NCBI RefSeq assembly: GCF_014851585.1
Contig: NZ_JACVAB010000003.1
Coordinates: 62,001 to 126,000 of the forward strand
Length of the DNA stretch: 64,000 nt
From: Agrobacterium sp. AGB01
GTDB lineage: Bacteria > Pseudomonadota > Alphaproteobacteria > Rhizobiales > Rhizobiaceae
Direction: 5' to 3'
How positions within the stretch are numbered: the first letter of the stretch is position 1; each line of letters begins with the position of its first letter. This document shows positions 38,359 to 60,957 of this stretch, piece after piece. Both the position numbers and the translations under genes were made by a program. The notes below the pieces were generated by a model, which was given only the letters and a program-made list of their open reading frames with translations, was not told the origin of the DNA and did not search any database.

Positions 38359-38380
38359 GGTCAGTATCCGCCAGTCATTC

Positions 38381-44329: not shown

Positions 44330-44345
44330 CAAAGGAAATAGCGAC

Positions 44346-45176: not shown

Positions 45177-45256
45177 AGGCTGGTTTCGCGACGCGTAAAC
45201 AAACGGCGTTCCGCTCTCGCGGGCGGAGTGTCATTTTTGATATCTGCAATAAAGCA

Positions 45257-46180
45257 CTAAATCGACGTTAGGTCCGGCACACTTGAAACCTGCTGGATGA
45301 CCTGCCGCAGGTTCTCGACAAACAGGCTGGCAAGCGCACTTGGTGTTCTTTCACTGCCAATCAGCATCAATTGCTGCGTGTGATGCGCGAGTTCATGGAT
45401 CGGAATATAGACTAGCCTGCCCTGCCTTAGCTCATATTCGATATCGAATGGCGTCAGGAAAGTAATACCCTCGTCCGACAGGGCCGTGTGCCGCATGACC
45501 TCAATCGAGTTGGTTTCGACCGCAAACTGCGGCTCCAGCTTCATTTTGCTAAACAGCCTGTCGAGATGCGGCCGGATAGCCATGGTCATATCCGCAACGA
45601 TCAGACGGTAACCGATGCAATCACTGATCCGAATGCTGGACCGCGACGCCAGCGGATGATCCGGCGCCATGACAGCGCCCAGACGGCCGATTGCTACATC
45701 AAGAACGCGGATGTTGGGTCTGGATGGAAAGTCGAATCCGATACCGATATGTGCCTCACCATTTTCCACGCTGTCCATGATGTCATCACCAGTCGGCAGC
45801 AGCCGAAGCTGGAGTTTGACGCGCGGATTACGCTTCTGGAAATGCGCAACAGCACGCGGCACCAGGTTGGCGGCAAGGCCGCTCATAACCGCGACCGTAA
45901 TTTCACCCCGTCTTAAGCCTTTCAGCTCCTCGATCTGCGACTGGACGCGCTCCATGTCCTTCAACGTCGCACGGATATGTCTAATGAGAATTTCACCCGC
46001 CGCCGTCAGCAACAGCTTGCGGGTCGTGCGCTGAAAAATCGGCGTTCCGAGCTCCTCTTCGAACGCAAGAATCTGCCGGCTGACCGCGGACGGCGCGACA
46101 TTGAGTTTTTCGGCGGCCTTACGGATCGAGCCTGAACGGGCCACTTCATCGAAATAGCTGAGCAATCTGGCGTGCAGCAT
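45257..46180 (-). CDS. LysR-family transcriptional regulator
   Basis: The 307-residue protein starts at the ATG at 46180, giving MLHARLLSYFDEVARSGSIR and the helix-turn-helix AAEKLNVAPSAVSRQILAFE; the frame is open to 46222. A periplasmic-binding-type effector domain covers ~90-300. It is divergent from the cupin gene that opens the large catabolic island and is the natural regulator of that operon. Candidate binding sequence: AATTAAGCGCTTTTAATT at 46223-46240. Confidence 0.92.
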   Translation of the reverse strand: MLHARLLSYFDEVARSGSIRKAAEKLNVAPSAVSRQILAFEEELGTPIFQRTTRKLLLTAAGEILIRHIRATLKDMERVQSQIEELKGLRRGEITVAVMSGLAANLVPRAVAHFQKRNPRVKLQLRLLPTGDDIMDSVENGEAHIGIGFDFPSRPNIRVLDVAIGRLGAVMAPDHPLASRSSIRISDCIGYRLIVADMTMAIRPHLDRLFSKMKLEPQFAVETNSIEVMRHTALSDEGITFLTPFDIEYELRQGRLVYIPIHELAHHTQQLMLIGSERTPSALASLFVENLRQVIQQVSSVPDLTSI

Positions 46181-46222
46181 AACGTCAAATCCATGTTGCC
46201 CAAAAGGCAACGCAAACAACAC

Positions 46223-46240
46223 AATTAAGCGCTTTTAATT
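46223..46240. promoter_or_regulatory. Candidate LysR operator
   Basis: AATTAAGCGCTTTTAATT has perfect 6-bp inverted arms (AATTAA/TTAATT) and fits the T-N11-A pattern of LysR sites. It lies 43 bases upstream of the LysR start in the 143-bp divergent gap. Confidence 0.5.
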
Positions 46241-46323
46241 CATTTTATCCTTGCTAACAATGTTCATGCGCCTGAAAAAACGCCACGCCTACAAACTAGG
46301 CAAATACTCCATAGGAAGCGAAT

Positions 46324-46746
46324 ATGAAAACCTTTTCTTTTGAAAATGCGACAAGTGCCGAGGCGTTCCAGATCTCGCCGACGGATACCAACTACTTCGC
46401 CATCCTGTTCGACCCGAAATCCGCACCAACCGACAACATCTTCGTCGTCGAAATCTTCAATGTCGGTGGCGCAACGCCGCCCAACAGCCACTCAGATGCG
46501 CATGAATTTTTCTACGTGCTGCACGGTGAAGGCACCGCCGCAAGCGACGGCGACGAAATGCCGATCAAGAAAGGTGATGCATTGTTGCTCAACCCCGGCA
46601 GCGTCCACATTGTCAAAAACACGGGCACATCAAAGCTTTACACACTGACCGTGATGACGCCGAACCAGGATTTTTCCGAACTTATCCGCAGCGGCCAGCG
46701 CATCAGCCTCGACGAAGAAGACCTTCGCGTTCTGCAGGGGCTTTGA
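46324..46746 (+). CDS. Cupin-domain protein
   Basis: The 140-residue protein is a single small beta barrel. Cupin motif 1 is PPNSHSDAHEFFYVLHGEG, with His residues at the usual metal positions, and motif 2 includes ALLLNPGSVHIVKNTGTS. Function is unknown; small cupins in catabolic operons act as isomerases, dioxygenase relatives or sensors. It ends three bases before the cysteine hydrolase gene and begins the island operon. Confidence 0.9.
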   Translation: MKTFSFENATSAEAFQISPTDTNYFAILFDPKSAPTDNIFVVEIFNVGGATPPNSHSDAHEFFYVLHGEGTAASDGDEMPIKKGDALLLNPGSVHIVKNTGTSKLYTLTVMTPNQDFSELIRSGQRISLDEEDLRVLQGL

Positions 46747-46749
46747 TCA

Positions 46750-47535
46750 ATGGACACTATGGCAAGCCAGCCGCACCTCAATCCCCTCGGCCCATCAGCC
46801 CGCAACGAATGGCGGGTTTCAGCTGACACGGTCAACATGATCCGTGTACCGGTCAGCGCACGTCCAGTCTCGGTACAGGACCGTAACCGCACCATCACAT
46901 TCGACGCGGCCCGCACCGCGGTCATCGTCATCGATATGCAGAACGACTTCTGCCATCCCGACGGCTGGCTTGCCCATATTGGCGTAGACGTTACCCCTGC
47001 ACGCGCGCCGATTGAGCCGTTAAAAGCGCTTTTACCAGTGCTGCGCAAATCCGACGTCCCCGTGATCTGGGTGAACTGGGGCAACAGGGCGGACCGCGCC
47101 AACCTTTCGCCCGGCGTGCTGCATGTCTACAATTCGGACGGCGTCAGCATCGGCATCGGCGACAAGTTGCCATCACGCAACGCGGAGGTTCTTCAGGTCG
47201 GAAGCTGGGCTGCACAGGTCGTTGATGAACTGGCTATCGAGCCGGATGATATCTGTGTCGACAAATACAGCATGTCCGGTTTTCATGACACGGTTCTGGA
47301 AAGCATCCTGCGCAATCTCGGCGTTACAACCTTGCTGTTTGCTGGCGTGAATGCGGACCAATGTGTTCTGTGCACACTACAGGACGGAAACTTCCGGGGT
47401 TTCGACTGCATCATGCTGGAAGATTGTTCGGCCACGACATCACCGACCTTCTGCATGGATGCTACCCTCTACAATGTGCGCCAGTGCTTCGGTTTTGTCT
47501 GCGGTTCCAACGAAATTCGGGAGCAGCTGGCATGA
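46750..47535 (+). CDS. Isochorismatase-family cysteine hydrolase
   Basis: The 261-residue amidohydrolase has catalytic Asp62 (VIDMQNDFCHP), Lys172 (CVDKYSMSGF) and Cys205 (NADQCVLCTL), the full D-K-C triad of the family, which includes biuret hydrolase, ureidoacrylate hydrolase (RutB) and N-carbamoylsarcosine amidase. A ~50-residue N-terminal extension precedes the core. Neighbours of the AtzH/HpxZ, creatininase and amidase types favour a carbamoyl or ureido substrate. It overlaps the AtzH-like gene by 4 bp. Confidence 0.92.
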   Translation: MDTMASQPHLNPLGPSARNEWRVSADTVNMIRVPVSARPVSVQDRNRTITFDAARTAVIVIDMQNDFCHPDGWLAHIGVDVTPARAPIEPLKALLPVLRKSDVPVIWVNWGNRADRANLSPGVLHVYNSDGVSIGIGDKLPSRNAEVLQVGSWAAQVVDELAIEPDDICVDKYSMSGFHDTVLESILRNLGVTTLLFAGVNADQCVLCTLQDGNFRGFDCIMLEDCSATTSPTFCMDATLYNVRQCFGFVCGSNEIREQLA

Positions 47536-47951
47536 CGACGAACACCACTCCGTCAAGCGCAGCCGTATTGCCGGTCAATTTGCCCGACGTCATCGCCGAA
47601 GTCACCATTTTGTGTGACGCCTATGAGGTGGCATTGATGGCGAATGATCTGGACACGCTTGACGCGCTTTTCTGGTCTGCCAGCGAAACGCTACGCTACG
47701 GCATTGCCGAAAATCTCTACGGCATAGAAGAAATCCGCGCCTACCGTGTCGGGCGTACTGGTGGTTCGCCGCAACGGGACGTCCTTCGCCGCGTCATCAC
47801 GACCCACGGAACCGATGTCGCGACCTGTAATCTTGAATTTATCAGGCCAGCAACCGGCACCCGAGGGCGCCAGAGCCAGACCTGGATACGTACCGTCGAC
47901 GGCTGGAAAATTGCCGCCGCTCACGTCTCACTCATCAACGCCGACCGTTAA
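47532..47951 (+). CDS. AtzH/HpxZ-like protein (NTF2-like fold)
   Basis: The 139-residue protein starts at the ATG at 47532, overlapping the previous stop. It carries LCDAYEVALMANDLDTLDALF, LRYGIAENLYGIEEIRAYR and WIRTVDGWKIAAAHVSLI, the pattern of the AtzH-like family. AtzH is encoded with 1-carboxybiuret hydrolase AtzEG, and HpxZ with oxalurate-degrading HpxWXY. An amidase and a gamma-glutamyltransferase-like enzyme occur 9-11 kb downstream here. The biochemical role of this family is poorly defined. Confidence 0.88.
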   Translation: MTTNTTPSSAAVLPVNLPDVIAEVTILCDAYEVALMANDLDTLDALFWSASETLRYGIAENLYGIEEIRAYRVGRTGGSPQRDVLRRVITTHGTDVATCNLEFIRPATGTRGRQSQTWIRTVDGWKIAAAHVSLINADR

Positions 47952-47967
47952 GCCGCAGGAGGCCGGA

Positions 47968-49359
47968 ATGTCTGATATTCATGCCTTCATTTCAGATCTT
48001 GGCGATATTCCCGCAACAACAGATCCACGCACCATCCGGACAAAAAGCCGCGATCACTATTCGCTGAGCCCGCTCTTGCAAAAGACACTGGCGGGATTGC
48101 AGGCGGAACTGGTGGTGTCGCCCCGCACCAAGGATGAGGTTCTGACTGTTGCCAAAGCCGCCCACAAACACCGCATATCACTGACACCACGTGGTGCGGG
48201 AACTGCAAATTATGGTCAGAGTGTTCCCCTTCGTGGCGGTGCCATGCTGGACCTTTCCGGGCTGAGCGGCATCGTATCCATTCGCGATGGTGCGGTGCGG
48301 GCACGTGCGGGAACAAAGATCGAGGATATCGAGGCCGCAGTTCAGGAAACGGGACAGGAACTGCGTTTCTTCCCGACCACCAGACGACAGGCAACGATTG
48401 GCGGTTTCATCGCAGGCGGCACGGGTGGTGTGGGTTCTATCACCTGGGGCGTTCTGCGTGACCGGGGCAACATCATCGCACTGGAAGCCTGTTCCGTCGA
48501 AGCGGAGCCGCAACTGGTGGAACTGCGCGGCAAGAAGACCCGTCTTCTGCAGCATGGCTACGGCACCAACGGCATCATTACCGAAGTTGAATTTGCGCTG
48601 GCACCGGCCCGCAAATGGGTTGAGATCCTGGTCGGTTTCAACGACTACCCGACGGCCATACGTCACGCCCTGGCAATCGGTTACGAGACCGGGCTCGTCA
48701 AAAAACTCGCCTCGGCTTACGAGTGGCCAATCGGTCAGTGGCTTACCCCTTTCGCACCCTTCGTGCCGCAAGGGCAGTCCGTGGTCATGGCGATGATCGA
48801 TGCATGCTCAATGGAGCTGTACCGCGAGATGGTCAGCGAAGCCGGGGGCACGACCCTGACCGAAGCGCCTGAGGCCCAAGGCCCCTATGGCAGGCCAATG
48901 TATGAATTTGCCTTTGGTCACACAACGCTTCAAGTCCAGAAAACCGTGCCGACGGTCACAGAGGTTGAGGGATTTTTCCGCTCAAGCGACCTCGAGGGTC
49001 AGGTTTTGCGGGTTTATGAGCGCATCCGTCACACCGGCCCCCTGCGGCTGGAGGTTCGCCGCTGGGAAGGCGATCTCGTTTGCTCCGGCTCAACCTTCAT
49101 CACGTTCGAAAAGGAAGAAGAGGTCGACGATGTCGTGCGGATGATGCGGGAAGAGGGAATTCGCGTCGCCAATCCCCATGCCTCAAACGTCCGTGGCGTC
49201 GGAAAGAAGGAAATCGGCCCGGCCGACATCGCCTTCAAGAAACGCATGGATCCCGAAGGCCTGCTCAATCCGGGCCGTTTCGAGATTGATGAAACCAAGG
49301 ATGCCGTCATCGATAAATTTTTGAAAACCGATGGCTGGCTGGAAGCCAAAACCGCCTGA
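47968..49359 (+). CDS. FAD-linked oxidase (PCMH/GlcD-type), paralogue A
   Basis: The protein has 463 residues; the start at 47968 is preceded by GCAGGAGG. The FAD-binding PCMH domain (~35-215) includes RGAGTANYGQSVPLRGG and GGFIAGGTGGVGS, then GVLRDRGNI and GTNGIITEVEFALAP. The C-terminal cap ends MDPEGLLNPGRFEID. It is cytoplasmic and soluble, without an iron-sulfur domain. It probably oxidises a 2-hydroxy acid or amine. A clear paralogue (51285-52679) lies in the same operon. Confidence 0.9.
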   Translation: MSDIHAFISDLGDIPATTDPRTIRTKSRDHYSLSPLLQKTLAGLQAELVVSPRTKDEVLTVAKAAHKHRISLTPRGAGTANYGQSVPLRGGAMLDLSGLSGIVSIRDGAVRARAGTKIEDIEAAVQETGQELRFFPTTRRQATIGGFIAGGTGGVGSITWGVLRDRGNIIALEACSVEAEPQLVELRGKKTRLLQHGYGTNGIITEVEFALAPARKWVEILVGFNDYPTAIRHALAIGYETGLVKKLASAYEWPIGQWLTPFAPFVPQGQSVVMAMIDACSMELYREMVSEAGGTTLTEAPEAQGPYGRPMYEFAFGHTTLQVQKTVPTVTEVEGFFRSSDLEGQVLRVYERIRHTGPLRLEVRRWEGDLVCSGSTFITFEKEEEVDDVVRMMREEGIRVANPHASNVRGVGKKEIGPADIAFKKRMDPEGLLNPGRFEIDETKDAVIDKFLKTDGWLEAKTA

Positions 49360-49390
49360 TCGCATACCCCAAAACAACAATGAGGGAACA

Positions 49391-50386
49391 ATGGAAATGA
49401 AGATAGGCACTTACCTGAAATCCTCCATCGCGGCCGTGGCCGTGTTTGCAGGCCTCGCCGCTCCCGCAGCCGCCAACGAACCAGTCACCTTTCAGCTAAG
49501 CTGGAAAGCCCAGCCGGAATTTGCAGGTTTCTATGAAGCTCTTGAGAAAGGCTATTATGCCGCCTGCGGCATCGACATGACATTGCGCGAAGGGGCACCT
49601 GGTATCGATCCAACTCAGCTTCTGACAACAGGCGCGGTGGATGTGGCGCTGCTGCCGCAGAATGATGGCGTTTTGCGCATGAATTCGGTCGGCTTCCCGG
49701 CCAAGGCCGTGATGGCCTCAATGCAGAAGTTCCTGACGGTGATGTTGTATCATGATGAATCCGGCATCAAGACGCCCGAAGACATCAAGGACAAACCTGT
49801 CTTGATTTCGCAGAGCAACCGCACGACTTTCTGGCCATTCCTGAAATCCAAATATGGCTACACCGACGATCAGCTGCGCACTTACACTGGCCAGATAGCA
49901 ACCTGGATGTCGGACAAAACCTCCATCCAGCAGGGTGTCGTGACGCAGGAACCGTTCCGCATCAAGGCTGAGACCGGCAAGCTGCCATCCTACTTCCTGC
50001 TGTCGGACATGGGTTACAACCCCTACACCGTGATCGTCGTGGTCTCGCAGAAGATGATCGATGAGAAGCCTGAGGTCGTGCAGTGCCTGGTTGACGGCTC
50101 TCGCAAGGGCTGGGTCGATTTCCTGAAAGACCCGTCGGTCGCTTTTGCTGCCATCAACAAGCTCAATCCCCAGATCACCAAAGAGCTGATGGATTACAGC
50201 CACGAGATGATGACGGCCAATAACCTGGTCGAAAACGACGACACCGCCAAACACGGTATTGGCTGGATCTCAGCTGAGCGATGGAAGTCTCACTATGAGA
50301 TGCTGGTCGCTAACGGTCTGTTTGCTGCGGACTTCGACTACGCCAGCGCCTTTACGACACGGTTCCTTGAAAAGCCGATGAACTGA
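49391..50386 (+). CDS. NMT1/SsuA-type ABC binding protein
   Basis: This 331-residue exported protein has a signal peptide ending APAAANEPV (about residue 28) and a ribosome site GAGGGAA. NMT1 features are seen: FQLSWKAQPEFAGFYEALEKGYY, TGAVDVALLPQNDGVL and GIKTPEDIKDKPVLI. Family members bind pyrimidine precursors, taurine, sulfonates, hydantoins or other N-heterocycles. The matching permease and ATPase are at 54367 and 55200, separated from it by three enzyme genes. Confidence 0.93.
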   Translation: MEMKIGTYLKSSIAAVAVFAGLAAPAAANEPVTFQLSWKAQPEFAGFYEALEKGYYAACGIDMTLREGAPGIDPTQLLTTGAVDVALLPQNDGVLRMNSVGFPAKAVMASMQKFLTVMLYHDESGIKTPEDIKDKPVLISQSNRTTFWPFLKSKYGYTDDQLRTYTGQIATWMSDKTSIQQGVVTQEPFRIKAETGKLPSYFLLSDMGYNPYTVIVVVSQKMIDEKPEVVQCLVDGSRKGWVDFLKDPSVAFAAINKLNPQITKELMDYSHEMMTANNLVENDDTAKHGIGWISAERWKSHYEMLVANGLFAADFDYASAFTTRFLEKPMN

Positions 50387-50449
50387 CAACGACGTCGAGG
50401 GCGGGCGCTTGCCGCCCCTCTCACAACACTTCGCATAATAACCGGGAAT

Positions 50450-51280
50450 ATGACTATGAACCTGAAATCGCATTGGTGGTGGGATCTGACGGCGCGTGAC
50501 TTTGCAACGCTGGACATGAGCAAGATCGTGGCCGTTCTGCCGGTTGGCGCCGTCGAACAACACGGACCGCATCTACCCGTCCGAGTGGACGCCGCCATAA
50601 ACAATGGCATCATGGAACATGCGGTCGCCAAGATGGCACCCGATTTTCCAGCCCTTATCCTGCCAACCATGAGTGTTGGCAAATCCAACGAACATTCTGC
50701 CTTCCCCGGAACATTGACACTGTCTGCCGAAACGCTCGGCCGTCTCTGGTACGAAGTCTGCGAAAGCGCCTACCGCGCTGGTGTGCGCAAAGTGCTGTTC
50801 GTCAATTCGCATGGTGGCCAGCCGCAGGTCATGGAAATCGTCTGCCGCCAATTGCGGGTCAATCTCGGCATGTTCGCCGTTTCGTCGCAGTGGTCGCGCT
50901 TCACCGACCTGAGCGACCTGTTCGATGGCGAAGAACGCAAACACGGCATTCATGCCGGCGAAGTCGAAACCAGCGTCCTGCGTTACTTGCACCCGGAACT
51001 GGTCGACATGCAATATGCCGAGGATTTCGTACCGCTCTCCAAGCAGCTTGAAAAAGAATACGACATGCTGATGACCGAAGGCGGTGCAGTCGGTTTCGGC
51101 TGGCAGTCGCAGGATATTCACCCGTCCGGCGCTTGCGGCAATGCCGCCGCAGCCGACGCGGAGCGCGGCCGCATCACCGTCGAGCGGGCGTCTGACCGAC
51201 TGATCAAGCTGATCGGCGAAATTGCCCACTACCCACTCGATCGCATCACGTCCGAGACAATGTACACGAAGGGGAAATGA
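50450..51280 (+). CDS. Creatininase-family amidohydrolase (canonical metal site)
   Basis: The 276-residue protein has PVGAVEQHGPHLPVRVDAAI with E, H and D metal ligands at the expected spacing, FVNSHGGQPQVMEIVCRQL, and HAGEVETSVLRYLHPELV. This family opens cyclic amides such as creatinine or hydrolyses formamides. The start is at 50450, with a second in-frame ATG at 50456. It ends five bases before the second FAD-linked oxidase gene. Confidence 0.93.
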   Translation: MTMNLKSHWWWDLTARDFATLDMSKIVAVLPVGAVEQHGPHLPVRVDAAINNGIMEHAVAKMAPDFPALILPTMSVGKSNEHSAFPGTLTLSAETLGRLWYEVCESAYRAGVRKVLFVNSHGGQPQVMEIVCRQLRVNLGMFAVSSQWSRFTDLSDLFDGEERKHGIHAGEVETSVLRYLHPELVDMQYAEDFVPLSKQLEKEYDMLMTEGGAVGFGWQSQDIHPSGACGNAAAADAERGRITVERASDRLIKLIGEIAHYPLDRITSETMYTKGK

Positions 51281-51284
51281 GCCA

Positions 51285-52679
51285 ATGACCTCATACCCGC
51301 TGACCGAGTTCGCCGCCGCCATTGAGGGTGTCGAATTGACGATGGACCCGCGCCGCATTCGCGTCAAAAGCCGTGACCGCTACGCCGTCAGCCCGCTGCT
51401 GCGCACCATGCTGGAAGGCAAGCAGGCCGATGTAGTCGTCACGCCGAAAACCATTGAGGAGTTGAAGCGGGTCGTCTCGGCAGCGGTCCGTTATCGCATC
51501 CCCATCACCGAACGAGGTGGCGGGTCTGCCAATTACGGCCAGAGCGTGCCGCTGCGGGGCGGCATCCTGCTCGACATGAGCGCCTATGCCGGCATGGTCG
51601 AGCTAGCTCCCGGCATGGCCCGCGCTAAGGCAGGCACACTGGTCATCGACATTGACAAGGCAGCCCGCGAGATCGGCTGGGAGTTGCGCGTCCACCCGAC
51701 AACAGCTCGCATTGCTACCATCGCCGGCCACATCGCTGGCGGTACCGGCGGGCCGGGTTCGGTCGTCTACGGCATCCTGCGTGATCGCGGCAATATTGCC
51801 GGCGCGCAGGTGCTGACAATGGAGGAAGAACCACGCTTGATCGAACTGCGTGGGCCAGACGCGCAGCTCATTCACCATACCTATGGCGCAACCGGCATCA
51901 TCACCGAAGTCGAGATGCCACTTGCTCCGGCATGGCCTTGGATCGAAGCAATTGTTGCTTTCCCGGAATACATGCAGGCGGTGCGTTTTGGCGTGACGCT
52001 TGCCAATGAAGCGGGCATCAACCGCAAGGTCGTTTCGGTTCAGGAATGGCCAACACCAAAGCTGATCCGGCAATTTGCCGATATCGTGCCCGAAGGTCAT
52101 TCGATCTGCTCGACCATGATCGCAAAAGACAATTGGGAGGATTTCGAGGCCTGTGTCGCCTCCTTCGGTGGCACCATCGTTTCGTCCGCGCCAGAAGGCA
52201 AAGGTCCCTATGGCGGGCCGATCTGGGAATTCGTGTTCGGCCACGCGCTGTTCCAGATTCAAAAGACCGAGCCCGGCCGTTCCGTCGTCGAAGGCTTCTT
52301 CCGCGATGCCGATCTGGTGGGACTTGTGCAGCGGGTGCACGACAAGGTCAGCCATTATGGCCCGATGCGCATGGAAATCCTGCGCGTTGGTGGTCAGGTG
52401 GTTGGCTCCGGCTCGCCCTATTTCGTTTACGAAAGCCCGGAACAGATGGCCACCATGGTGCGGCTGATGCAGGAGGCCGGAGCCGTGGTCTCCAACTCAC
52501 ATACCTCCAATGTGCGCGCCGTCGGCAAAAAGGAAATCACCGAACGCGAGATCGCCTTCAAACGTCAGGTCGATCCTTACAATCTGCTCAATCCAGGCCG
52601 CTTCGAAATCGACGACAAGGCCGATGAAAAATTCGCCATCGAACTTCCAACAGACAAATGGGATCGGCGTCAGGCATGA
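51285..52679 (+). CDS. FAD-linked oxidase (PCMH/GlcD-type), paralogue B
   Basis: The 464-residue protein closely resembles paralogue A: the block ANYGQSVPLRGG is identical, with HIAGGTGGPGS, GILRDRGNI, TGIITEVEMPLAP and NLLNPGRFEID in the same order. It has the same single PCMH plus cap architecture. The two may act on successive intermediates or form a heteromer. It is coupled by ATGA overlap to the downstream CocE-like hydrolase gene. Confidence 0.9.
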   Translation: MTSYPLTEFAAAIEGVELTMDPRRIRVKSRDRYAVSPLLRTMLEGKQADVVVTPKTIEELKRVVSAAVRYRIPITERGGGSANYGQSVPLRGGILLDMSAYAGMVELAPGMARAKAGTLVIDIDKAAREIGWELRVHPTTARIATIAGHIAGGTGGPGSVVYGILRDRGNIAGAQVLTMEEEPRLIELRGPDAQLIHHTYGATGIITEVEMPLAPAWPWIEAIVAFPEYMQAVRFGVTLANEAGINRKVVSVQEWPTPKLIRQFADIVPEGHSICSTMIAKDNWEDFEACVASFGGTIVSSAPEGKGPYGGPIWEFVFGHALFQIQKTEPGRSVVEGFFRDADLVGLVQRVHDKVSHYGPMRMEILRVGGQVVGSGSPYFVYESPEQMATMVRLMQEAGAVVSNSHTSNVRAVGKKEITEREIAFKRQVDPYNLLNPGRFEIDDKADEKFAIELPTDKWDRRQA

Positions 52680-54370
52680 ACGACATTTCAAACACCAAAG
52701 ACCTCACTGGCAGGTTTGCCGTTTTGCCTCCGGAAACGCAGTCGATGCATTTGAGTGACGGCATAAGGCTTGATGCAGATATCTACCGTCCGGTTGGCCC
52801 CGGCCCTTACCCGGTGCTTCTTCAGCGGCAAGCCTATGGCCGTCGCATCGCATGCACCATCTGTTACGCGCATCCGGCCTGGTATGCGTCGCATGGTTAT
52901 ATCGTTGTGGTCCAGGACATCCGTGGTCGCGGCACGTCGGAAGGTGTGTTCCGTCCCGGCGAAAACGATATCGAGGATGGTGCGCAAGCGGTTGAATGGG
53001 CTGCAGCACTGGAAGGATCGACCGGCGATGTCGGCATGTATGGTTTTTCCTACCAGTCCTACAACCAGCTGCTTGCCGCCACTGGCAACAGCCCTTCGCT
53101 GAAAGCAATCGCACCGGCAATGGGTCCGTGGGATGCAGGTTCCACATGGGCCTATGAAAACGGCGCGCTGCGGATGAAACAGATGGTCGGCTGGGGCATT
53201 CAGATCACCGCCGAAGCGGCACGGCGTGCCGGTGACGACGAAGCCTACGCGGCACTGATGGCTGTATCTGCCAACCTACCAGTTAACGGTCCAATTGCCG
53301 CAAAACCGGATATTCTGACAAAATACCGCGATTACTCTCATGTCATGGACTGGCTTGAAACACCTGCGGACTCCGATTTTTGGGCCAAAATTTCCCCCTC
53401 AACCCATGCCGAAAAAATCAAGGCCCGCAAACTCCCCATGCTGGTCATTGGCGGTTGGTTTGACACACATCTGGCCAGCACGATCAAAGCGTGGAAAGAG
53501 CTTTCGTACGACGATGACGGAATATCGCGGTTGATCATCGGCCCCTGGGTCCATTTCCCCTGGGTCAGCAAGGTCGGCACTGTCGACTTCGGGCCTGCGG
53601 CGGAGCGAGACACCGACATGGAGCATATCCGCTTCTTCGATCAGGCTCTCAAACACAAGTCGGCTACAGAACTCACCAGCAAGCCAATCTCATTCTTCGA
53701 CATGGGCGTAAAATCCTGGCGCGACTTGGAAAGCTGGCCGGAGGATGAGCAGACCTTCTACCTTGGCAGCACAGGCCGTGCGGCAATCCGTGACGATGAC
53801 GGCACGTTGAGCGAACAGCAAGGTCTGTTGGATGCCAGCGATTACATCGTACACGATCCTTGGCGCCCGGCTCCTGTAACAGGTGGCTGTTACGGCGTAC
53901 CGGCTGGCCCTGTTGACCGTCGCCTGACCGATGAGCGTGGTGATGTTCTGACATTCACGACCGCGCCGTTGCAATCCAGCCTGACCTTGGCCGGAGAACC
54001 GGTGATCGAGATATCCGCGACCTCAGATTGCCCGAGTTTCGATCTGTCCTGCGTTCTCTCCACAGTCACAAAGGACGGTAGGGTCCTGCAGATTTCCAGC
54101 GGTTATGCACATTATAGAGACGCTGGCGAGGGAACCTACACCCTGCCTCTGACAACAACGTGTTCGACCATTCTGGCGGGTGAACAGTTGCGACTATCCA
54201 TTGCAGCCTCCGATTACCCCGCCCATCCGGTCAATCCCGGCACCGGTGAGGACCCGGTATCGACCCCAAAAACAAAGGCGGTGGTTACGACGATTTGCGT
54301 GTCACATGGCCCGTCGCATAGCTCAACCTTGCGTCTGCCCATCGCCGAACTTTCGGGAGTGCCGTCTTGA
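52676..54370 (+). CDS. CocE/NonD-family hydrolase
   Basis: The 564-residue alpha/beta hydrolase is of the X-Pro dipeptidyl-peptidase/cocaine-esterase class. SDGIRLDADIYRPVGPGPYP opens the catalytic domain, QDIRGRGTSEG follows, and the nucleophile elbow is GMYGFSYQSYNQ (Ser125). GPWVHFPW holds the likely catalytic His. A jelly-roll domain (~345-560) has LTLAGEPVIEISATSDCPSFD. No signal peptide is visible, so it is cytoplasmic. Substrate: an ester, amide or N-terminal X-Pro-like bond of the island's substrate, not determinable from sequence. Confidence 0.92.
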   Translation: MNDISNTKDLTGRFAVLPPETQSMHLSDGIRLDADIYRPVGPGPYPVLLQRQAYGRRIACTICYAHPAWYASHGYIVVVQDIRGRGTSEGVFRPGENDIEDGAQAVEWAAALEGSTGDVGMYGFSYQSYNQLLAATGNSPSLKAIAPAMGPWDAGSTWAYENGALRMKQMVGWGIQITAEAARRAGDDEAYAALMAVSANLPVNGPIAAKPDILTKYRDYSHVMDWLETPADSDFWAKISPSTHAEKIKARKLPMLVIGGWFDTHLASTIKAWKELSYDDDGISRLIIGPWVHFPWVSKVGTVDFGPAAERDTDMEHIRFFDQALKHKSATELTSKPISFFDMGVKSWRDLESWPEDEQTFYLGSTGRAAIRDDDGTLSEQQGLLDASDYIVHDPWRPAPVTGGCYGVPAGPVDRRLTDERGDVLTFTTAPLQSSLTLAGEPVIEISATSDCPSFDLSCVLSTVTKDGRVLQISSGYAHYRDAGEGTYTLPLTTTCSTILAGEQLRLSIAASDYPAHPVNPGTGEDPVSTPKTKAVVTTICVSHGPSHSSTLRLPIAELSGVPS

Positions 54371-55200
54371 CCGATCTTGCTGTGAGCTCTTCCAATCCGA
54401 CCTCGGTCAAATGGCGCAGGGCGGCGGCCGAGACTGCTGCTCCAGCTCTCGGCGGTGTTATTTTCCTCATTGCATGGGAAGCACTGGTCACCCATTTTCA
54501 GGTGTCGCGTTTTATCCTGCCACCACCGTCGGCAATTATCGTCAAGATGGTCGATGAGTTCCCCTCGCTGTTGAGCGCTCTTGGGTTTACGGCATCGATC
54601 ACCGTCTGCGCCTTTGTCGCCGCACTCGTATCCGGCGTCACCCTGGGCGTGCTTCTGACCCAAAACAAGCAGGTGGAACGTATCCTCTGGCCCTATGCCG
54701 TTGCCCTGCAGGTTACCCCCATGGTGGCGATTGCTCCGCTCGTGGTAATCTGGGTTGGCCTGAACCGGGTATGGCTTGGACTGATGATCCTTGCCTGGAT
54801 CGTGGCCTTCTTTCCCATGCTGTCCAACACCGCCGTCGGCATGAAATCTGCCGATCACGGCCTGCGCAACGTCTTCAGCCTCTACAAGGCAACCCGCTGG
54901 CAGCGTTTTCGCTACCTGCAACTGCCATCCGCACTTCCCTTCATTCTGGCAGGGGCGCGGATATCCTCCGGTCTTTCAGTCATTGGTGCCGTGGTTGCCG
55001 AATTTGTTGCTGGCGCTGGTAATGCCACAGGCCTTGCCTGGACCATCGTTGAAAGCGGCGCGATGCTGGATGTCGCCCGCATGTTCGCGGCACTTTTCAT
55101 GCTCTCCGCCTTTGGTCTGACGATCTGGTTCATCATGGCCAAGGTGCAACATGCTTTGCTCAGCCGTTGGCATGAGAGCGAACTGGTGCAGGAGGGTTGA
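54367..55200 (+). CDS. ABC transporter permease, SsuC/ThiX type
   Basis: The 277-residue permease starts with TTG overlapping the hydrolase stop (TTGA). It has about six membrane helices, and the EAA-like loop is FSLYKATRWQRFRYLQLPSA at residues ~170-190. A stretch MVAIAPLVVIWVGLNRVWLG is typical of nitrate/taurine/pyrimidine-precursor importers. It works with the NMT1-type binding protein (49391) and the following ATPase. Confidence 0.93.
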   Translation: MTDLAVSSSNPTSVKWRRAAAETAAPALGGVIFLIAWEALVTHFQVSRFILPPPSAIIVKMVDEFPSLLSALGFTASITVCAFVAALVSGVTLGVLLTQNKQVERILWPYAVALQVTPMVAIAPLVVIWVGLNRVWLGLMILAWIVAFFPMLSNTAVGMKSADHGLRNVFSLYKATRWQRFRYLQLPSALPFILAGARISSGLSVIGAVVAEFVAGAGNATGLAWTIVESGAMLDVARMFAALFMLSAFGLTIWFIMAKVQHALLSRWHESELVQEG

Positions 55201-56003
55201 TGATGAACGCAGGAAACACCGCTATGCTCGACATGCCCTCGACACAGGTAAAACCAATCGTGCGCCTCAGCGGCGTCGACAAGATTTATGGCAATGGCAC
55301 AGTTGCTCTTCGCGACCTTAACTTGAAAGTTCAGCCCGGCGAATTCGTCAGCCTTCTCGGCCCAAGCGGCTGTGGCAAGTCTACCGCGCTGCGCATTGTT
55401 GCCGACCTTGGCCAGCACACCGCAGGACGTGTCGACCGACCGGGAGACGACGTAACCGACGCACGCGGGGAAATCGGTTTCGTTTTTCAGGAGCCGCACC
55501 TCATGCCTTGGGCAACGGTTTTCGACAATATTTTTCTGCCGCTGAAACTAGCGGGAAAATCGAAAAACGCCGCCCGTGATGACGTGCTGTCCGTCATTGA
55601 AATGGTTGGCCTGCAAAACTTCGCGAATGCCTATCCGCGCGAACTGTCCGGCGGCATGAAAATGCGTGTTTCCATCGCCCGCGCATTGGTCACAAAACCA
55701 AAATTGCTGCTGATGGATGAGCCCTTTGCAGCGCTGGATGAAATTACCCGCAACCGCCTGTCCAACGACCTGTTGCGCATCTGGGCATCTACCTCGTCCA
55801 CAGTGATGTTCGTCACCCACAGTGTTTATGAAAGCGTGTTTCTCTCAAGCCGCATCGTGGTCATGGCAGCCCGCCCCGGCCGTATCATTGGCGAAATCCC
55901 CATCGAGCGGGCTTATCCACGCGATGCCGAATACCGCCTTTCTCCTGAATATGCTGGTTACTGCCGCGACGTATCCGCGCTGCTCAACAAGGCGATGGAG
56001 TAG
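55200..56003 (+). CDS. ABC transporter ATP-binding protein, SsuB/ThiZ type
   Basis: The 267-residue ATPase has Walker [11 protein letters not shown]-loop VFQEPHLMPW, signature LSGGMKMRVSIARAL, Walker B LLLMDEPFAALD and H-loop FVTHSVYE. I chose the ATG at 55200, which overlaps the permease stop (TGATG) behind GGAGGG; a TTG at 55197 is the alternative. It completes the NMT1-type importer. Confidence 0.94.
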   Translation: MMNAGNTAMLDMPSTQVKPIVRLSGVDKIYGNGTVALRDLNLKVQPGEFVSLLGPSGCGKSTALRIVADLGQHTAGRVDRPGDDVTDARGEIGFVFQEPHLMPWATVFDNIFLPLKLAGKSKNAARDDVLSVIEMVGLQNFANAYPRELSGGMKMRVSIARALVTKPKLLLMDEPFAALDEITRNRLSNDLLRIWASTSSTVMFVTHSVYESVFLSSRIVVMAARPGRIIGEIPIERAYPRDAEYRLSPEYAGYCRDVSALLNKAME

Positions 56004-56007
56004 GCCG

Positions 56008-56967
56008 ATGCAGGTTTCGATGCGTGACATCGTCATTACCGCCATCGATGATGAGGCAGACGGCATTCGCTCCTTCAGACTGGAAAGTACCGATGGTGAG
56101 CCTTTCGCAGCTTCTCCGGCAGGGGCACATATCGATATCCACCTGCCCGACGGTCTGGTGCGGCAATATTCGCTTTGCAATGATCCGGCGGAAACCAACT
56201 TCTACCGGATTGCCATCAAGCGTGAACCTCAGTCACGGGGTGGTTCACAATGGTTTCATGAGGCCGCGCACATCGGCGCCAAGTTGAAGATGGGTGCTTC
56301 GCGAAGCCTTCTCTCCGTATCAAGCAAAGCCGAGCGGCATATCCTATTGGCAGGCGGTATCGGCATTACACCTCTTTACAGCATGGCCATGCATTTCCTC
56401 TCCGCCAGCAAACCATTTGGACTGCATTACTTCGCGCGGTCGAAAGAACAGGCCGCCTTTTTCGAAGTGCTTTCATCCGGCGCCTTCGCAGATCATGTCC
56501 ATTTTCATTTTGGTCTGGAGACCGCGGCACTAGCACCGGTTCTGGATGGAATTTTCGTGCAAAGAGGCAGCGGTAGCCATCTCTATATGTGCGGCCCAGG
56601 AGCTTTTATGGATCACGTACGGACGCAGGCATCACGCCTCTGGGCCGAGACGGAAATCCATGAGGAACGGTTTTCCGGAGCGGCGGCTCCAGAGAGTGCG
56701 GATAGTTTTCGTGTGGTTCTTGCGCGTAGCGGAACCACAATCGATGTGCCGACCAATCGCAGCATACTCGACGTATTGATGGCCAATGGCCACGACATCG
56801 AACACTCCTGCGAACAGGGCTTTTGCGGAAGCTGCATGACGGCCCTGCTTGAAGGCGAGGCCGACCATCGCGACACATTTCTCACCCCGGAGGAGATCGC
56901 ATCCGGCCAGTGGATCATGCCTTGTGTGTCCCGCGCCAAAACCGCTCAACTAACCCTCGATCTGTAA
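56008..56967 (+). CDS. PDR/VanB-type oxygenase reductase (FMN and [2Fe-2S])
   Basis: The 319-residue protein has an N-terminal flavin domain with RQYSLCNDPAETNFYRIAIK, an NAD domain with LLAGGIGITPLYSMAMHF and MCGPGAFMDHV, and a C-terminal plant-type ferredoxin with Cys268, Cys273, Cys276 and Cys306. This is the standard phthalate-dioxygenase-reductase layout, which feeds electrons to a Rieske oxygenase. No Rieske or other oxygenase is visible in the window. The start is at 56008, five bases after the ATPase. Confidence 0.93.
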   Translation: MQVSMRDIVITAIDDEADGIRSFRLESTDGEPFAASPAGAHIDIHLPDGLVRQYSLCNDPAETNFYRIAIKREPQSRGGSQWFHEAAHIGAKLKMGASRSLLSVSSKAERHILLAGGIGITPLYSMAMHFLSASKPFGLHYFARSKEQAAFFEVLSSGAFADHVHFHFGLETAALAPVLDGIFVQRGSGSHLYMCGPGAFMDHVRTQASRLWAETEIHEERFSGAAAPESADSFRVVLARSGTTIDVPTNRSILDVLMANGHDIEHSCEQGFCGSCMTALLEGEADHRDTFLTPEEIASGQWIMPCVSRAKTAQLTLDL

Positions 56968-56981
56968 TTTAGGACTGCCCC

Positions 56982-58148
56982 ATGCCCGATATCTCCGATG
57001 CCTTTATCCAACGGTTTGATCACACGCTTCAAGCGAGCCCGGTAATCAACGACCAGCCGCTCTCCGGCTTGAGCGTCGCTGCGAAGGACAATTTCGACAT
57101 TAGGGGCCTGATCACAGGAGCTGGAAACCCGGAATTTGCGGAGGATCAGAAACCAGCAGCGGCAAATGCGGGCGTTGTCGACACGCTACTGAAAAATGGC
57201 GCCTCCATCATCGGCAAAACGCATATGGACGAACTTGCCTACAGCCTGATGGGTTTGAACGCACGTTACGGCGTGCCGTTGAATACGGCAGCACCATTGC
57301 GCGTACCAGGCGGCTCTTCCTCCGGCTCAGCGTCTGCGGTGGCCGCTGACCTTGCCGACATTGGATTAGGAACAGACACCGGTGGATCTGTTCGGCTTCC
57401 CGCCTCCTTTTGCGGCCTTTATGGCTGGCGCTCTACCCATGGGCTGATTTCATCCGAGGGCATGGTGCCGCTGGCCGCGAGTTATGACGTATCGGGTTTC
57501 TTCACCCGGGATCGCAATCTGATGGAACGGATCATCTCGGTCTTTTGCCAGACATCACCCGACGCTACAGACATTCGTTATTGGGCACCCGAAGACCTTT
57601 GGGCCTTACCGATGGATGAAACCCGTGAACATATCCGCTCTGCCCTCCCCGCCTTCGATTACAGGCTTGATACGATCCTGCCTGACGGTGGAGCGGAAGC
57701 TTCCTTAAGCGCATTTCGTCTCCATCAGGGATACGAGATCTGGCAGCATTTCGGGGAATGGATTACCAAACGTCAACCGGCCTTCGGACCGGGCATCAAA
57801 GAACGTTTCGCCATGGCGAGTAAAATTACCGAAGCCGAATTCAAGGAGGCCAGCGCCTACCGCGAGCGACTTCGTGCACGGCTGGATGCACTTTTACCCG
57901 AAGGGACAATCCTGCTCTATCCCACGGCGCCCGGCCCTGCACCTTTGCTGACAACACCGCAGTCAGAACTTGAGCCCTATCGCAATCGAGCGCTGAGCCT
58001 GATGTCGGTCGCCGGTCATGCGGGTCTACCGCAACTCAGCATTCCCTTCGGAACGGTGGATGGCGCACCCGTTGGACTTTCCCTGGTCGGTAGACCGGGC
58101 AGCGACCTGCTGCTCATCAAAGCCGCCGCCTCGTTTCCATCCTTCTGA
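56982..58148 (+). CDS. Amidase signature family enzyme (AtzE/GatA-like)
   Basis: The 388-residue enzyme has catalytic Lys35 in VAAKDNFDIRG, the serine-rich loop PGGSSSGSASAVAADLADIG and nucleophile region GTDTGGSVRLPASFCG. It is shorter than AtzE or GatA (about 450 or more), closer to AMI1-like amidases. It hydrolyses a small amide. The AtzG/HpxX-type small subunit that normally partners AtzE/HpxY is not found beside it. It lies 14 bp after the reductase and 17 bp before the next gene. Confidence 0.92.
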   Translation: MPDISDAFIQRFDHTLQASPVINDQPLSGLSVAAKDNFDIRGLITGAGNPEFAEDQKPAAANAGVVDTLLKNGASIIGKTHMDELAYSLMGLNARYGVPLNTAAPLRVPGGSSSGSASAVAADLADIGLGTDTGGSVRLPASFCGLYGWRSTHGLISSEGMVPLAASYDVSGFFTRDRNLMERIISVFCQTSPDATDIRYWAPEDLWALPMDETREHIRSALPAFDYRLDTILPDGGAEASLSAFRLHQGYEIWQHFGEWITKRQPAFGPGIKERFAMASKITEAEFKEASAYRERLRARLDALLPEGTILLYPTAPGPAPLLTTPQSELEPYRNRALSLMSVAGHAGLPQLSIPFGTVDGAPVGLSLVGRPGSDLLLIKAAASFPSF

Positions 58149-58165
58149 AGCGTCAGGACATCAGC

Positions 58166-59746
58166 ATGCTGCAAACCGCGCTCGCCTTTAACGGCACTTT
58201 CACCGCACCACACCGCGAAGCGGCCTATGCCGGACGCCGTATTCTTGATGAAGGTGGCACCGCCATGGAAGCCATGGTTGCCGCAGCCGCGATGATCGCC
58301 GTTGTCTATCCGCACATGAACGGTATCGGCGGGGATGGCTTCTGGCTAGTCCACAGACCGGGTAAACCACTCACTGGCATTTCCGCCTGTGGACAGGCAG
58401 CCGGTCTTGCGACGGTTGACTGGTACCGTGACCGTGGCCATGTCGCCGCCATTCCTACGCGCAACGGCGAAGCCGCACTGACCGTCCCCGGCACCATCGG
58501 CGGATGGGACATGGCGCTGTCGATGGTTGATAACGCAAAGCGTTTTTCTGTCTCCGAACTTGTTTCAGCTGCCGTCGCGAAAGCACGCGACGGAATTGCC
58601 GTCACCGCCAACCAGTCAATCTGCACATTAGACAAATTACACGAACTTGCCGGTGTTGCGGGTTTTGCCGAAACCTATCTGATCGATGGAAAAATACCGC
58701 CAGCTGGCGCGCGTCTGCGACAGTCACGACTGGCCGATACGCTGGAAGAGCTCGGGCGCAAAGGCCTGCGCTCCTATTATGACGGCGATCTCGCTCAAAG
58801 CCATGCAGCCTTTCTTGAGCGCAACGGCAGTCCGTTGCGGGTTGAGGATTTCAGGCACTATGCACCGCGTGAAGTTACACCGCTCAGCGTCACGACGCGT
58901 GAGGGCACGCTCCACAACATGGTCGCGCCTACCCAGGGTGTCGCCTCCCTGATGATCCTCGGTCTCTTTGATCGGCTGCAAATCGAAACTGGCGAAGGTT
59001 ACGACCACATTCACGGGCTGATCGAGGCAACAAAACAGGCCTTCATCAAACGCAATCGTGACCTTGGTGATCCGGCCACAATGACTGCCGACGCCCAGAC
59101 ATGGCTTGAGGCTAAAGCGCTCGATAATCTCGCCGCCAGGATCGACATGAACCGGGCACTGCAATGGCCGTACAAACCAGCAGAGGGCGATACGATCTGG
59201 ATGGGGGCTGCCGACCGATACGGCAATGTCGTCAGTTTTATCCAGAGTGTCTATTGGGAGTTCGGCTCCGGACTTACCTGCCCCGAGACCGGTGTGTTTT
59301 TCCAGAACCGTGGCGCCGGTTTTTCGCTTGCCGAAGGTCCAAACCAGCTGCAGCCCGGCAAACGGCCGTTCCATACGCTCAATCCGGCCTTCGCAAAGCT
59401 CGCCGACGGCCGCGTGATGGCCTATGGCACCATGGGCGGTGAGGGCCAACCGCAGACGCAAGCTGCAATTTTTACCCGCCATGCCCGTTTTGGCATGCCG
59501 CTTCAGGAAGCAATCACCGCACCGCGCTGGCTGCTCGGCCGCACATGGGGCGCCAGCAGCACCAATTTGAAACTGGAAAGCCGCTTTGATACGGCACTTG
59601 TCGAAAAGCTCAAAACGGCGGGACACGACATTGAGATGATCGCGCCGTTTTCCGATCTTTGCGGCCATGCCGGAGCCGTTGTCCTGCATCCTAACGGGCT
59701 TTGCGAAGCTGCTGCCGATCCAAGATCTGATGGTGCGGCTCTCTAA
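58166..59746 (+). CDS. Gamma-glutamyltransferase-family hydrolase (HpxW-like)
   Basis: The 526-residue Ntn-hydrolase has a catalytic Thr343 in GDTIWMGAADRYGN, where autocleavage between large (1-342) and small subunit is expected. MNGIGGDGFWLVHRPG and GTMGGEGQPQTQA are typical family motifs. There is no signal peptide, so it is cytoplasmic, unlike periplasmic glutathione-degrading enzymes. Together with the amidase and AtzH-like gene it recalls the hpxWXYZ oxalurate/oxamate set, where HpxW is an oxamate amidohydrolase. Confidence 0.9.
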   Translation: MLQTALAFNGTFTAPHREAAYAGRRILDEGGTAMEAMVAAAAMIAVVYPHMNGIGGDGFWLVHRPGKPLTGISACGQAAGLATVDWYRDRGHVAAIPTRNGEAALTVPGTIGGWDMALSMVDNAKRFSVSELVSAAVAKARDGIAVTANQSICTLDKLHELAGVAGFAETYLIDGKIPPAGARLRQSRLADTLEELGRKGLRSYYDGDLAQSHAAFLERNGSPLRVEDFRHYAPREVTPLSVTTREGTLHNMVAPTQGVASLMILGLFDRLQIETGEGYDHIHGLIEATKQAFIKRNRDLGDPATMTADAQTWLEAKALDNLAARIDMNRALQWPYKPAEGDTIWMGAADRYGNVVSFIQSVYWEFGSGLTCPETGVFFQNRGAGFSLAEGPNQLQPGKRPFHTLNPAFAKLADGRVMAYGTMGGEGQPQTQAAIFTRHARFGMPLQEAITAPRWLLGRTWGASSTNLKLESRFDTALVEKLKTAGHDIEMIAPFSDLCGHAGAVVLHPNGLCEAAADPRSDGAAL

Positions 59747-59791
59747 TGGCATGACCCTTGCATTTCCTGAACCAGACGACCGGGAATGACC

Positions 59792-60787
59792 ATGTTTGCG
59801 AATATTAATCCCTCGATAGATGTGCGGCTGCTCCGCACCACCTACCTCCTGCTTACCGAGCGCAATGTCTCAAGAGTGGCGGTGCTGCTCGGGCACAGCC
59901 AGCCCACGGTCAGCGCCTGCCTGAAGAAAGCGCGCGAAATCTTTGCCGATCCGCTGCTCGTGCGAGCCGGACAACGGCTTGTGCTGACCGAAAGAGGCGA
60001 AGAGATCAAGACGCTGATCGGCAGCGTGCTGCTTGGCCTGTCTGATGCCCTCAACGGTCAGGACCATTTCGATCCGCGTCTATCCAGCCAGAATATTCGT
60101 ATTGCTGTGCTCAACTGTTTTGGGGTGTTTCTCGTCCCGGAAATAGCCAAGCGCATTCATCACAATGCTCCCAATGTCACGCTCGACTTCTTTCCGCCGG
60201 GTGATAACCCTGACCTTCCCGAAGAACTTGGTGCGGGCCGTGTCGATGTGGTCATCGGCAATTGGCCTGCACCGCAGCCAAGCCTGAAGTCTACCGCCTT
60301 GTTTCAATGCGACATTGCCTGCATTGCCCATCGCGATCACCCCTTGGCTGCAGGGGACGCGATATCACTCGATGCCTATCTCGCCGCTAGCCACATTTCA
60401 CCGACAGCAAGTTCCAGCGCCGGGTTCAGCCCGATAGACGGGCGGTTGGCGCAGCTCGGGCTGAAACGCAACATTGCCATGTCCGTGCCCGAATATGCGA
60501 TGATCCCGCCTATCGTCGGCGGCACCGATCTTATCTTCACCACGGCGCGCGCCTATGCCGAACATATGGCCGCCAACACACCTGATCAGCACCTGCAGGT
60601 CATTGATGCGCCGTCAGAGTTCGACCGCATGCATCTTTACCTGCTTTGGCACGAGCGTAACCACACCAGCATTGCCCACAAATGGCTGCGCCGTATCATC
60701 CGGGATGTCGCGAAGGAATTTGAATTCAGCCTGCACGAGCCGACCCTTTCGCCGGCACGCCCTTCCCTCAATCAGCTGCCAATCTGA
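59792..60787 (+). CDS. LysR-family transcriptional regulator
   Basis: The 331-residue protein starts at the ATG at 59792, with GGGA six bases before it (59786 is an alternative start). The N-terminal helix-turn-helix is VRLLRTTYLLLTERNVSRVA followed by LLGHSQPTVSACLKKAREIF, the NodD/NahR-like subgroup pattern with LLVRAGQRLVLTERGE. The effector domain covers ~100-310. It ends the island and probably controls either the island or the downstream importer, whose promoter region has a matching inverted repeat. Confidence 0.92.
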   Translation: MFANINPSIDVRLLRTTYLLLTERNVSRVAVLLGHSQPTVSACLKKAREIFADPLLVRAGQRLVLTERGEEIKTLIGSVLLGLSDALNGQDHFDPRLSSQNIRIAVLNCFGVFLVPEIAKRIHHNAPNVTLDFFPPGDNPDLPEELGAGRVDVVIGNWPAPQPSLKSTALFQCDIACIAHRDHPLAAGDAISLDAYLAASHISPTASSSAGFSPIDGRLAQLGLKRNIAMSVPEYAMIPPIVGGTDLIFTTARAYAEHMAANTPDQHLQVIDAPSEFDRMHLYLLWHERNHTSIAHKWLRRIIRDVAKEFEFSLHEPTLSPARPSLNQLPI

Positions 60788-60848
60788 GCGTCGATATAGC
60801 AGTTCATCTATACCGTATATCGGTGTCCGTAGAGTTCACTCAACATCC

Positions 60849-60899: not shown

Positions 60900-60957
60900 T
60901 GCAGTTGATTTCATCATCACTGCGATACAGCCCGCATGAATTCACACGCCTGAGGAT

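Follow-up and report, generated by a model that had tools for sequence, protein, structure and literature searches.

A candidate operon for uptake and breakdown of a cyclic-ureide-type N-heterocycle in Agrobacterium sp. AGB01

In a 64,000-nucleotide stretch of the genome of Agrobacterium sp. AGB01 (assembly GCF_014851585.1, contig NZ_JACVAB010000003.1, positions 62,001 to 126,000; hereafter the window), 13 plus-strand genes fill positions 46324-59746, as judged from open reading frames and Pfam matches with the permease and ATPase of an importer counted (Table 1). We consider that this island is probably (at a rough probability of 0.6) an operon for the uptake and breakdown of a small cyclic-ureide-type nitrogen heterocycle (N-heterocycle), and that it was probably acquired horizontally. 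On our best reading it would belong to an as yet uncharacterised system for N-heterocycle catabolism, and its genes form a mosaic whose modules are also found separately. In the proposed route, an ATP-binding cassette (ABC) importer with an NMT1-type binding protein, together with an adjacent second importer, would bring the compound in. FAD_binding_4 flavoproteins, served by a phthalate-dioxygenase-reductase-type (PDR-type) reductase, would alter the redox state of the ring, and a creatininase-family enzyme would open it. A cysteine hydrolase, a CocE-like hydrolase, an amidase and an AtzH/HpxZ-like protein would strip carbamoyl and amide groups, and a gamma-glutamyltransferase-fold (GGT-fold) enzyme would hydrolyse an oxamate-type end product, the route perhaps ending at oxamate and oxalate. 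We infer every reaction, their order and the substrate from the functions of these enzyme families, which are established, and from the linkage of the genes; the genes themselves, their families, their intact-looking motifs, their conservation and their linkage were observed.

The original prediction, made from this DNA alone, had described a catabolic island of 12 to 13 contiguous same-strand genes, many of them overlapping, with its own importer. All parts that it named exist as open reading frames on one strand, at or close to the predicted coordinates, with strong Pfam matches, and the gene number is 13 once the permease and ATPase are counted. Four-nucleotide overlaps, each of an ATG start with the preceding stop, lie at 47532 and 52676, and there are two more if the TTG starts of the permease (54367) and the ATPase (55197) are the real starts. 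The set is catabolic-looking and encodes an NMT1-type ABC importer within it. The predicted extent stands for the core genes and not for the boundaries, the unit being wider, with the regulator LysR1 (which accompanies the Comamonas cluster described below) on the left and a second importer on the right. The prediction that a cyclic ureide is opened and then deamidated stepwise fits the enzyme families.

The cysteine hydrolase has an intact D62-K172-C205 motif and RutB as its nearest solved relative (1.8e-34, PDB search), and it misses the NCBIfam equivalogs of both RutB (137.1 bits, cut-off 377.95) and BiuH (127.5 bits, cut-off 370). The AtzH/HpxZ-like protein passes the HpxZ equivalog (158.8 bits, cut-off 135) and is also close to AtzH itself (PDB 6bjt, 2.7e-36). 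The creatininase-family protein, whose nearest solved relative is creatininase (4.9e-14), carries NSHGGQ and HAGEVETS, and its translation reads EQHGPHLPVRVD at the first metal-ligand region, where the pattern tried had the wrong spacing; it misses the creatininase equivalog TIGR04448 (92.5 bits, cut-off 235) and the MftE model (110.5 bits, cut-off 172). The CocE-like protein passes TIGR00976 (CocE_NonD; 400 bits, cut-off 66.3), is nearest to cocaine esterase (2.2e-57) and has the motifs GFSY, GGWFD and GPWVH. The amidase, with its Lys and GGSSSGSA motif, is nearest to GatA (2.8e-43), passes PRK08310 (436.8 bits, cut-off 391) and misses the AtzE-type model TIGR02715 (173 bits, cut-off 425.75). 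The GGT-fold protein has TIWMG at residue 343, misses the gamma-glutamyltransferase equivalog TIGR00066 (299.4 bits, cut-off 357.85) and is closest to PDB 5hft (small chain 5.8e-76, large chain 6.4e-73), which was labelled gamma-glutamyltranspeptidase in the structure search and which we take to be the oxamate amidohydrolase HpxW. The motifs checked in these enzymes are presumably catalytic. Neither of two cupin motif patterns matched the cupin. Among solved structures, the NMT1-type protein is nearest to an unnamed binding protein (2.8e-10) and then to a formyl-aminopyrimidine-binding protein (1.4e-9), with ThiY and THI5 among its nearest relatives.

The two flavoproteins, FAD1 and FAD2, are 48% identical to each other and have PDB 6v42/6v43 as nearest solved relative (FAD1 versus 6v42, 3.6e-95). 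An AlphaFold2 model of FAD2 from three sequences had a mean predicted local distance difference test score of 40.8 and was set aside. The two flavin oxidases of the original prediction are thus present as two FAD_binding_4 proteins, and the label oxidase was not borne out: from the gene neighbourhoods compared below they are more likely dehydrogenases, reductases or oxygenases with a redox partner than simple oxidases.

A scan of GTDB contigs with FAD2 returned one relative, in Comamonas sp. BIGb0124 (L001), where a fetched 21 kb holds 10 of the 13 island genes in the window's order at 51-80% identity: cupin 71%, cysteine hydrolase 71%, NMT1-type binding protein 62%, creatininase 76%, flavoprotein (matching FAD2) 78%, CocE 62%, permease 80%, ATPase 79%, reductase 51% and amidase 60%, accompanied by LysR1 (73%). 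Relatives of LysR1 at 55-64% were also seen in L051, L052, L080 and L081. At E <= 1e-110, FAD2 has a match in seven of 399 genomes of the Comamonas family, the six besides BIGb0124 at 41-44% identity, and in two of 398 in the phylum sample (own included). Partial island sets occur in other families and classes (L074, L082, L077, L064, L081, L046 and L051). One of these (L074) has flavoproteins, creatininase, GGT-fold, amidase (only 29% identical to the window's), AtzH, cysteine hydrolase, cupin, importer parts, CocE and a deaminase together; another, in a different class (L082), has cysteine hydrolase, cupin, CocE, importer, flavoprotein, creatininase, AtzH and amidase. Plasmid neighbourhoods found with the GGT-fold, AtzH and cysteine hydrolase queries likewise hold related but partial sets. 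Such conservation in other genomes indicates that the run of same-strand genes is not a product of chance alone. The search for co-conserved clusters that had been proposed with the original prediction therefore refutes the possibility that the cluster is not conserved as a unit, since ten genes are collinear in Comamonas and partial sets recur.

Flavoprotein relatives also occur in a wider group of clusters. At looser thresholds, 15 of 61 relatives (E <= 1e-30) and 18 of 385 genomes of the class (E <= 1e-70) have a flavoprotein relative, both counts including the own genome. The neighbourhoods of 38 other flavoprotein-selected genomes from four search sets were compared by tblastn. These counts use thresholds that we chose, and some stretches end at short contigs; two loci each were used for G055, G051, G057, G967 and G061, G059 was left out, and the loci that supplied the deaminase and flavodoxin-type reductase queries (L042) and the RidA query (L041) are counted by construction. 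An NMT1-type binding protein was found in 33 neighbourhoods, a cytosine-deaminase-like amidohydrolase (nearest solved relatives, cytosine deaminases) in 33, the ATPase in 29, the permease in 28, a creatininase-family gene in 24, a flavodoxin-type reductase in 23, RidA in 18 and a PDR-type reductase in two. Cysteine hydrolase, cupin and CocE were found in five each, amidase in three, AtzH in two and the GGT-fold gene in one. Of 29 genomes with a flavoprotein hit, the own genome among them, 24 have a Pfam creatininase match no more than 10 kb from the flavoprotein gene, where copy number would predict about 0.5. That count left out G059, G931, G961, G1076, G1116 and six genomes of the Comamonas family (G134, G168, G211, G239, G317 and G440); tblastn detected no creatininase in six of these 11. 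The combination of flavoprotein, creatininase-family gene and NMT1-type importer marks an unnamed cluster family, and the island has all three. A locus on a Rahnella plasmid (L059) combines PDR-type reductase, deaminase-like gene, RidA, creatininase, NMT1 importer and flavoprotein. On a Klebsiella pneumoniae plasmid (L056, 3689-11374) we observed reductase, deaminase-like gene, RidA, creatininase, NMT1 importer and flavoprotein, and a further, chromosome-length Klebsiella record (CP125156.1) is listed with a flavoprotein match.

The island reductase has phthalate dioxygenase reductase as its nearest solved relative (PDB 2pia, 8.2e-62) and carries CEQGFCGSC. A candidate redox partner was present in 25 of the 38 neighbourhoods. 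At the loci with a PDR-type reductase (the window, L001, L036, L048, L056 and L059) no flavodoxin-type reductase was found in the same stretch, and none of the 38 genomes had both types in one locus. No Rieske gene lies near the reductase in the own genome (G000), G061 or G211: the own genome has three Rieske matches, of which one shares the operon's contig at a distance of some 390 kb, and G061 and G211 have no Rieske match on the reductase contig. The flavoproteins are therefore candidate acceptors, and the reductase may serve them. We tentatively extend this idea, with less than even confidence, to an undescribed two-component flavoenzyme, in which a FAD_binding_4 protein and a reductase of its own (of the PDR or flavodoxin type, or a small 2Fe-2S protein) might prime an N-heterocycle for ring opening by the creatininase-family enzyme. 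Together they would form a catabolic route, likewise undescribed, that extends across Alpha-, Beta- and Gammaproteobacteria, and the island would be its most complete version seen here.

The cysteine hydrolase was found in five of 398 genomes of the phylum sample, own included. Relatives scoring 150 bits or more are present at 14 loci (L052 and L080 being near-duplicates). Of these loci, ten have the cupin, nine creatininase, eight amidase, seven flavoprotein, six CocE and five AtzH, and the cupin gene adjoins the cysteine hydrolase gene in L001, L046, L051, L052, L064, L074, L077, L080, L081 and L082. On a Streptomyces plasmid (L054, 10052-10768) the cysteine hydrolase gene has ATP-grasp and methyltransferase genes as neighbours, a context unlike any other that we saw.

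Several observations weigh against a single, well-bounded operon of this kind. AtzH, FAD1 and the GGT-fold gene are unmatched in the fetched Comamonas stretch, which implies that the oxamate ending is not core. The 61% relative of FAD2 in G1193 (L062, 9285-10676) is alone among housekeeping-type genes in its 20 kb, and that genome has no creatininase match. In 14 of the 38 genomes, including all six at 41-44% FAD2 identity, the fetched stretch holds no creatininase, and 13 of the 38 are without a detectable redox partner, which speaks against a strict rule. Four of the 14 cysteine hydrolase loci (L053, L054, L083 and L093) have neither cupin nor creatininase, that of L054 standing alone, so the linkage is not strict. 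The right boundary of the island was not located, and its G+C content (57.5%) equals that of the rest (57.0%), so that composition gives no sign of foreign origin.

As to the ring itself, resemblances to deaminases, RutB and ThiY/THI5 favour a pyrimidine-type substrate, and the oxamate-type end enzymes speak for a five-membered ring. In the first case the ring could be a (substituted) uracil, the deaminase-bearing sister clusters starting from the matching cytosine, in a Rut-like or oxidative-uracil-like route with other enzymes. We hold this as a possibility of clearly less than even odds. It draws on the deaminase-like gene and RidA counts given above, on the cysteine hydrolase having RutB as its closest solved relative, on the pyrimidine-precursor binders ThiY and THI5 near the NMT1-type protein, and on one cluster that has genes for urea carboxylase and allophanate hydrolase next to it. 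However, none of the 13 genes has a Pfam match to a RutA-type luciferase-fold monooxygenase, the cysteine hydrolase is far under the RutB cut-off, the island is without a deaminase gene, and plain uracil does not call for oxamate-type end enzymes.

Alternatively, a hydantoin, parabanate-like or creatinine-like compound might undergo two oxidations by the two flavoproteins, then ring opening, and pass via oxalurate- and oxamate-type intermediates to oxalate. The HpxZ match and the likeness of the GGT-fold protein to 5hft agree with this, as do the paired flavoproteins that also occur in L043, L064, L065 and L074 (with three in L072) and the presence of amidase, HpxZ and GGT-fold within one stretch in Azospirillum (L094), but the Comamonas operon is without the AtzH and GGT-fold end genes, the true creatininase model was missed and the reaction order is speculation; we regard it as unlikely. 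The Azospirillum stretch, on a plasmid (14001-28227), encodes a GGT-fold protein, a branched-chain-type importer, xanthine-dehydrogenase-type subunits, an amidase, HpxZ and DUF1116.

It is also doubtful that two or three separate pathways merely adjoin, namely cupin, cysteine hydrolase, amidase and AtzH; flavoproteins with the NMT1 importer; and creatininase and CocE with the second importer. Many loci have the flavoprotein module alone, L051 is without flavoproteins, and L098 and L099 combine LysR2, an AMP-binding ligase, creatininase, CocE and the second importer. Against such a division stand the interleaved gene order with its translational overlaps, the same interleaved order in Comamonas, and the repeated association of the modules with flavoproteins of different branches (in an unrooted tree whose support was not inspected). 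Riboflavin or lumichrome degradation of the Lum type, for which the available excerpts of two reports give amide hydrolases and an oxamic acid product (PMC12752717, PMC12746152), is very improbable and is rejected by gene content, since the P450, thiamine pyrophosphate-dependent decarboxylase, xanthine-oxidase-type, Rieske and catechol dioxygenase enzymes named for the lumichrome pathway in the excerpt of the latter are all missing from the 13 genes by Pfam.

With a cyclic-ureide-type operon as the preferred reading, we turn to its limits and origin. Across window positions 28301-45076 an Agrobacterium tumefaciens plasmid (L097) is collinear at 89.6% identity, the match ending at 45076, and among 39 genomes of the genus a FAD2 relative at E <= 1e-110 occurs in the own genome only. 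Counting this break on the left (at 45,076) and the rarity of FAD2 in the genus in its favour, horizontal acquisition is probable. No repeats of at least 20 bases were found within 44500-64000, and megablast of 45200-64000 against plasmids gave no record covering 80%. On the right the unit runs on into LysR2 and the second importer, which crosses the window end. This importer is 52-67% identical in two clusters with cysteine hydrolase, cupin and CocE, on a Roseomonas mucosa plasmid (L051; ATPase 54%, binding protein 66%) and in L064 (56% and 67%). It is 80-88% identical in Neorhizobium galegae and Rhizobium sullae (L098 and L099; ATPase 82% in both, binding protein 85% and 88%), where it adjoins LysR2 (64% and 62%), the AMP-binding ligase, creatininase and CocE. 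Past the window on the own contig (L096), RidA (5800-6189, plus strand) and a second creatininase-family gene (6209-6997, minus strand) lie 20 bases apart; they are 78-81% and 72-78% identical, respectively, to genes that flank a flavoprotein/deaminase/NMT1 module in five genomes of the genus (L042, L084-L087) and a Rhizobium plasmid (L023). That module is absent between the two genes in the own genome, which on one reading lost it and kept the flanking genes.

Table 1 Features of the island and adjoining genes (window positions).
Feature	Position	Strand	Basis and remarks
LysR1, LysR-family regulator	45257..46222	-	Divergent from operon; Pfam
Cupin	46324..46746	+	Pfam Cupin_2 4.4e-15
Isochorismatase-fold cysteine hydrolase	46750..47535	+	Pfam Isochorismatase 1.3e-36; nearest solved relative RutB
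AtzH/HpxZ-like protein	47532..47951	+	Pfam AtzH-like 4.4e-51; NCBIfam HpxZ; PDB 6bjt
FAD_binding_4 flavoprotein 1 (FAD1)	47968..49359	+	Pfam FAD_binding_4 1.2e-26
NMT1-type substrate-binding protein	49391..50386	+	Pfam NMT1 3.3e-29
Creatininase-family amidohydrolase	50450..51280	+	Pfam Creatininase 1.8e-71
FAD_binding_4 flavoprotein 2 (FAD2)	51285..52679	+	Pfam FAD_binding_4 8.2e-24
CocE/NonD-family serine hydrolase	52676..54370	+	Pfam Peptidase_S15 8.6e-64; TIGR00976
ABC permease, first importer	54367..55200	+	Pfam BPD_transp_1 3.6e-22
ABC ATPase, first importer	55197..56003	+	Pfam ABC_tran 1.9e-34
PDR-type flavin/2Fe-2S reductase	56008..56967	+	Pfam Fer2 3e-14; PDB 2pia
Amidase-signature amidase, PRK08310 type	56982..58148	+	Pfam Amidase 7.3e-68; PRK08310
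GGT-fold N-terminal nucleophile (Ntn) hydrolase	58166..59746	+	Pfam G_glu_transpept 2.6e-116; closest PDB 5hft
LysR2, second LysR-family regulator	59786..60787	+	Pfam
ATPase of second importer	60958..61989	+	Pfam
Substrate-binding protein of second importer	62027..63085	+	Pfam SBP_bac_6
Permease of second importer	63082..64000	+	Continues 770 bases beyond the window, to 64770 counted on

To the left of the island, the region 28301-45076, near 90% identical to Agrobacterium plasmids, has an annotated dipeptide-type importer and N-formylglutamate amidohydrolase, and within it lies a further, distant creatininase-family gene (32531-33463, minus strand; 23% identical to the island's). Directly beside the island, 40642-45176 encodes an aldehyde dehydrogenase, a class III aminotransferase, an HpcH-type aldolase and a carbon-nitrogen hydrolase; these genes are common to the Agrobacterium plasmid and are thus placed outside the island.

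Similar gene blocks recur in distantly related bacteria. If the proposed reading is true, an unnamed N-heterocycle ring-opening route would be common to soil, plant-associated and some clinical bacteria, and the 'oxidases', 'creatininases' and 'gamma-glutamyltransferases' annotated in such operons would be misnamed. The set offers a defined start in a screenable binding protein, a flavoprotein with its candidate reductase, and the creatininase-family enzyme.

The original prediction knew of no described pathway with this gene set, and a search of one open-access library gave no description of it; nor does the island match the characterised Rut, Hpx, s-triazine, creatinine or lumichrome pathways. 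Like the Rut system (RutA-G), the island has a flavin enzyme with a reductase, an isochorismatase-fold hydrolase, RidA (just outside the window) and an importer, but it is without a RutA-type monooxygenase, its cysteine hydrolase is under the RutB cut-off, and it adds creatininase-family, CocE, amidase and GGT-fold genes. With the oxalurate/oxamate branch of the Hpx pathway, served by hpxW-Z, it shares an HpxZ match, a GGT-fold protein nearest to 5hft and an amidase in the same operon; it differs in having no upper purine genes among its 13 and an amidase of PRK08310 type, not of AtzE type (HpxY). The s-triazine, biuret and triuret pathways (AtzD-H, BiuH, TrtAB) resemble it in the AtzH-like protein, the isochorismatase-fold hydrolase and the amidase-signature hydrolase, whereas the island misses the BiuH and AtzE models and by Pfam has no AtzD-type gene in the operon. 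Biuret, triuret and oxalurate clusters use related families, one with a creatininase-like gene nearby, according to the excerpt available of one report (PMC12625717). Finally, the unnamed clusters of rhizobia, Comamonadaceae, Klebsiella and Rahnella (L023, L042, L056, L057 and L059) share with the island the NMT1-type importer, flavoprotein, creatininase and redox partner; they carry a deaminase and RidA, where the island instead carries the cupin, cysteine hydrolase, CocE, amidase, AtzH and GGT-fold genes.

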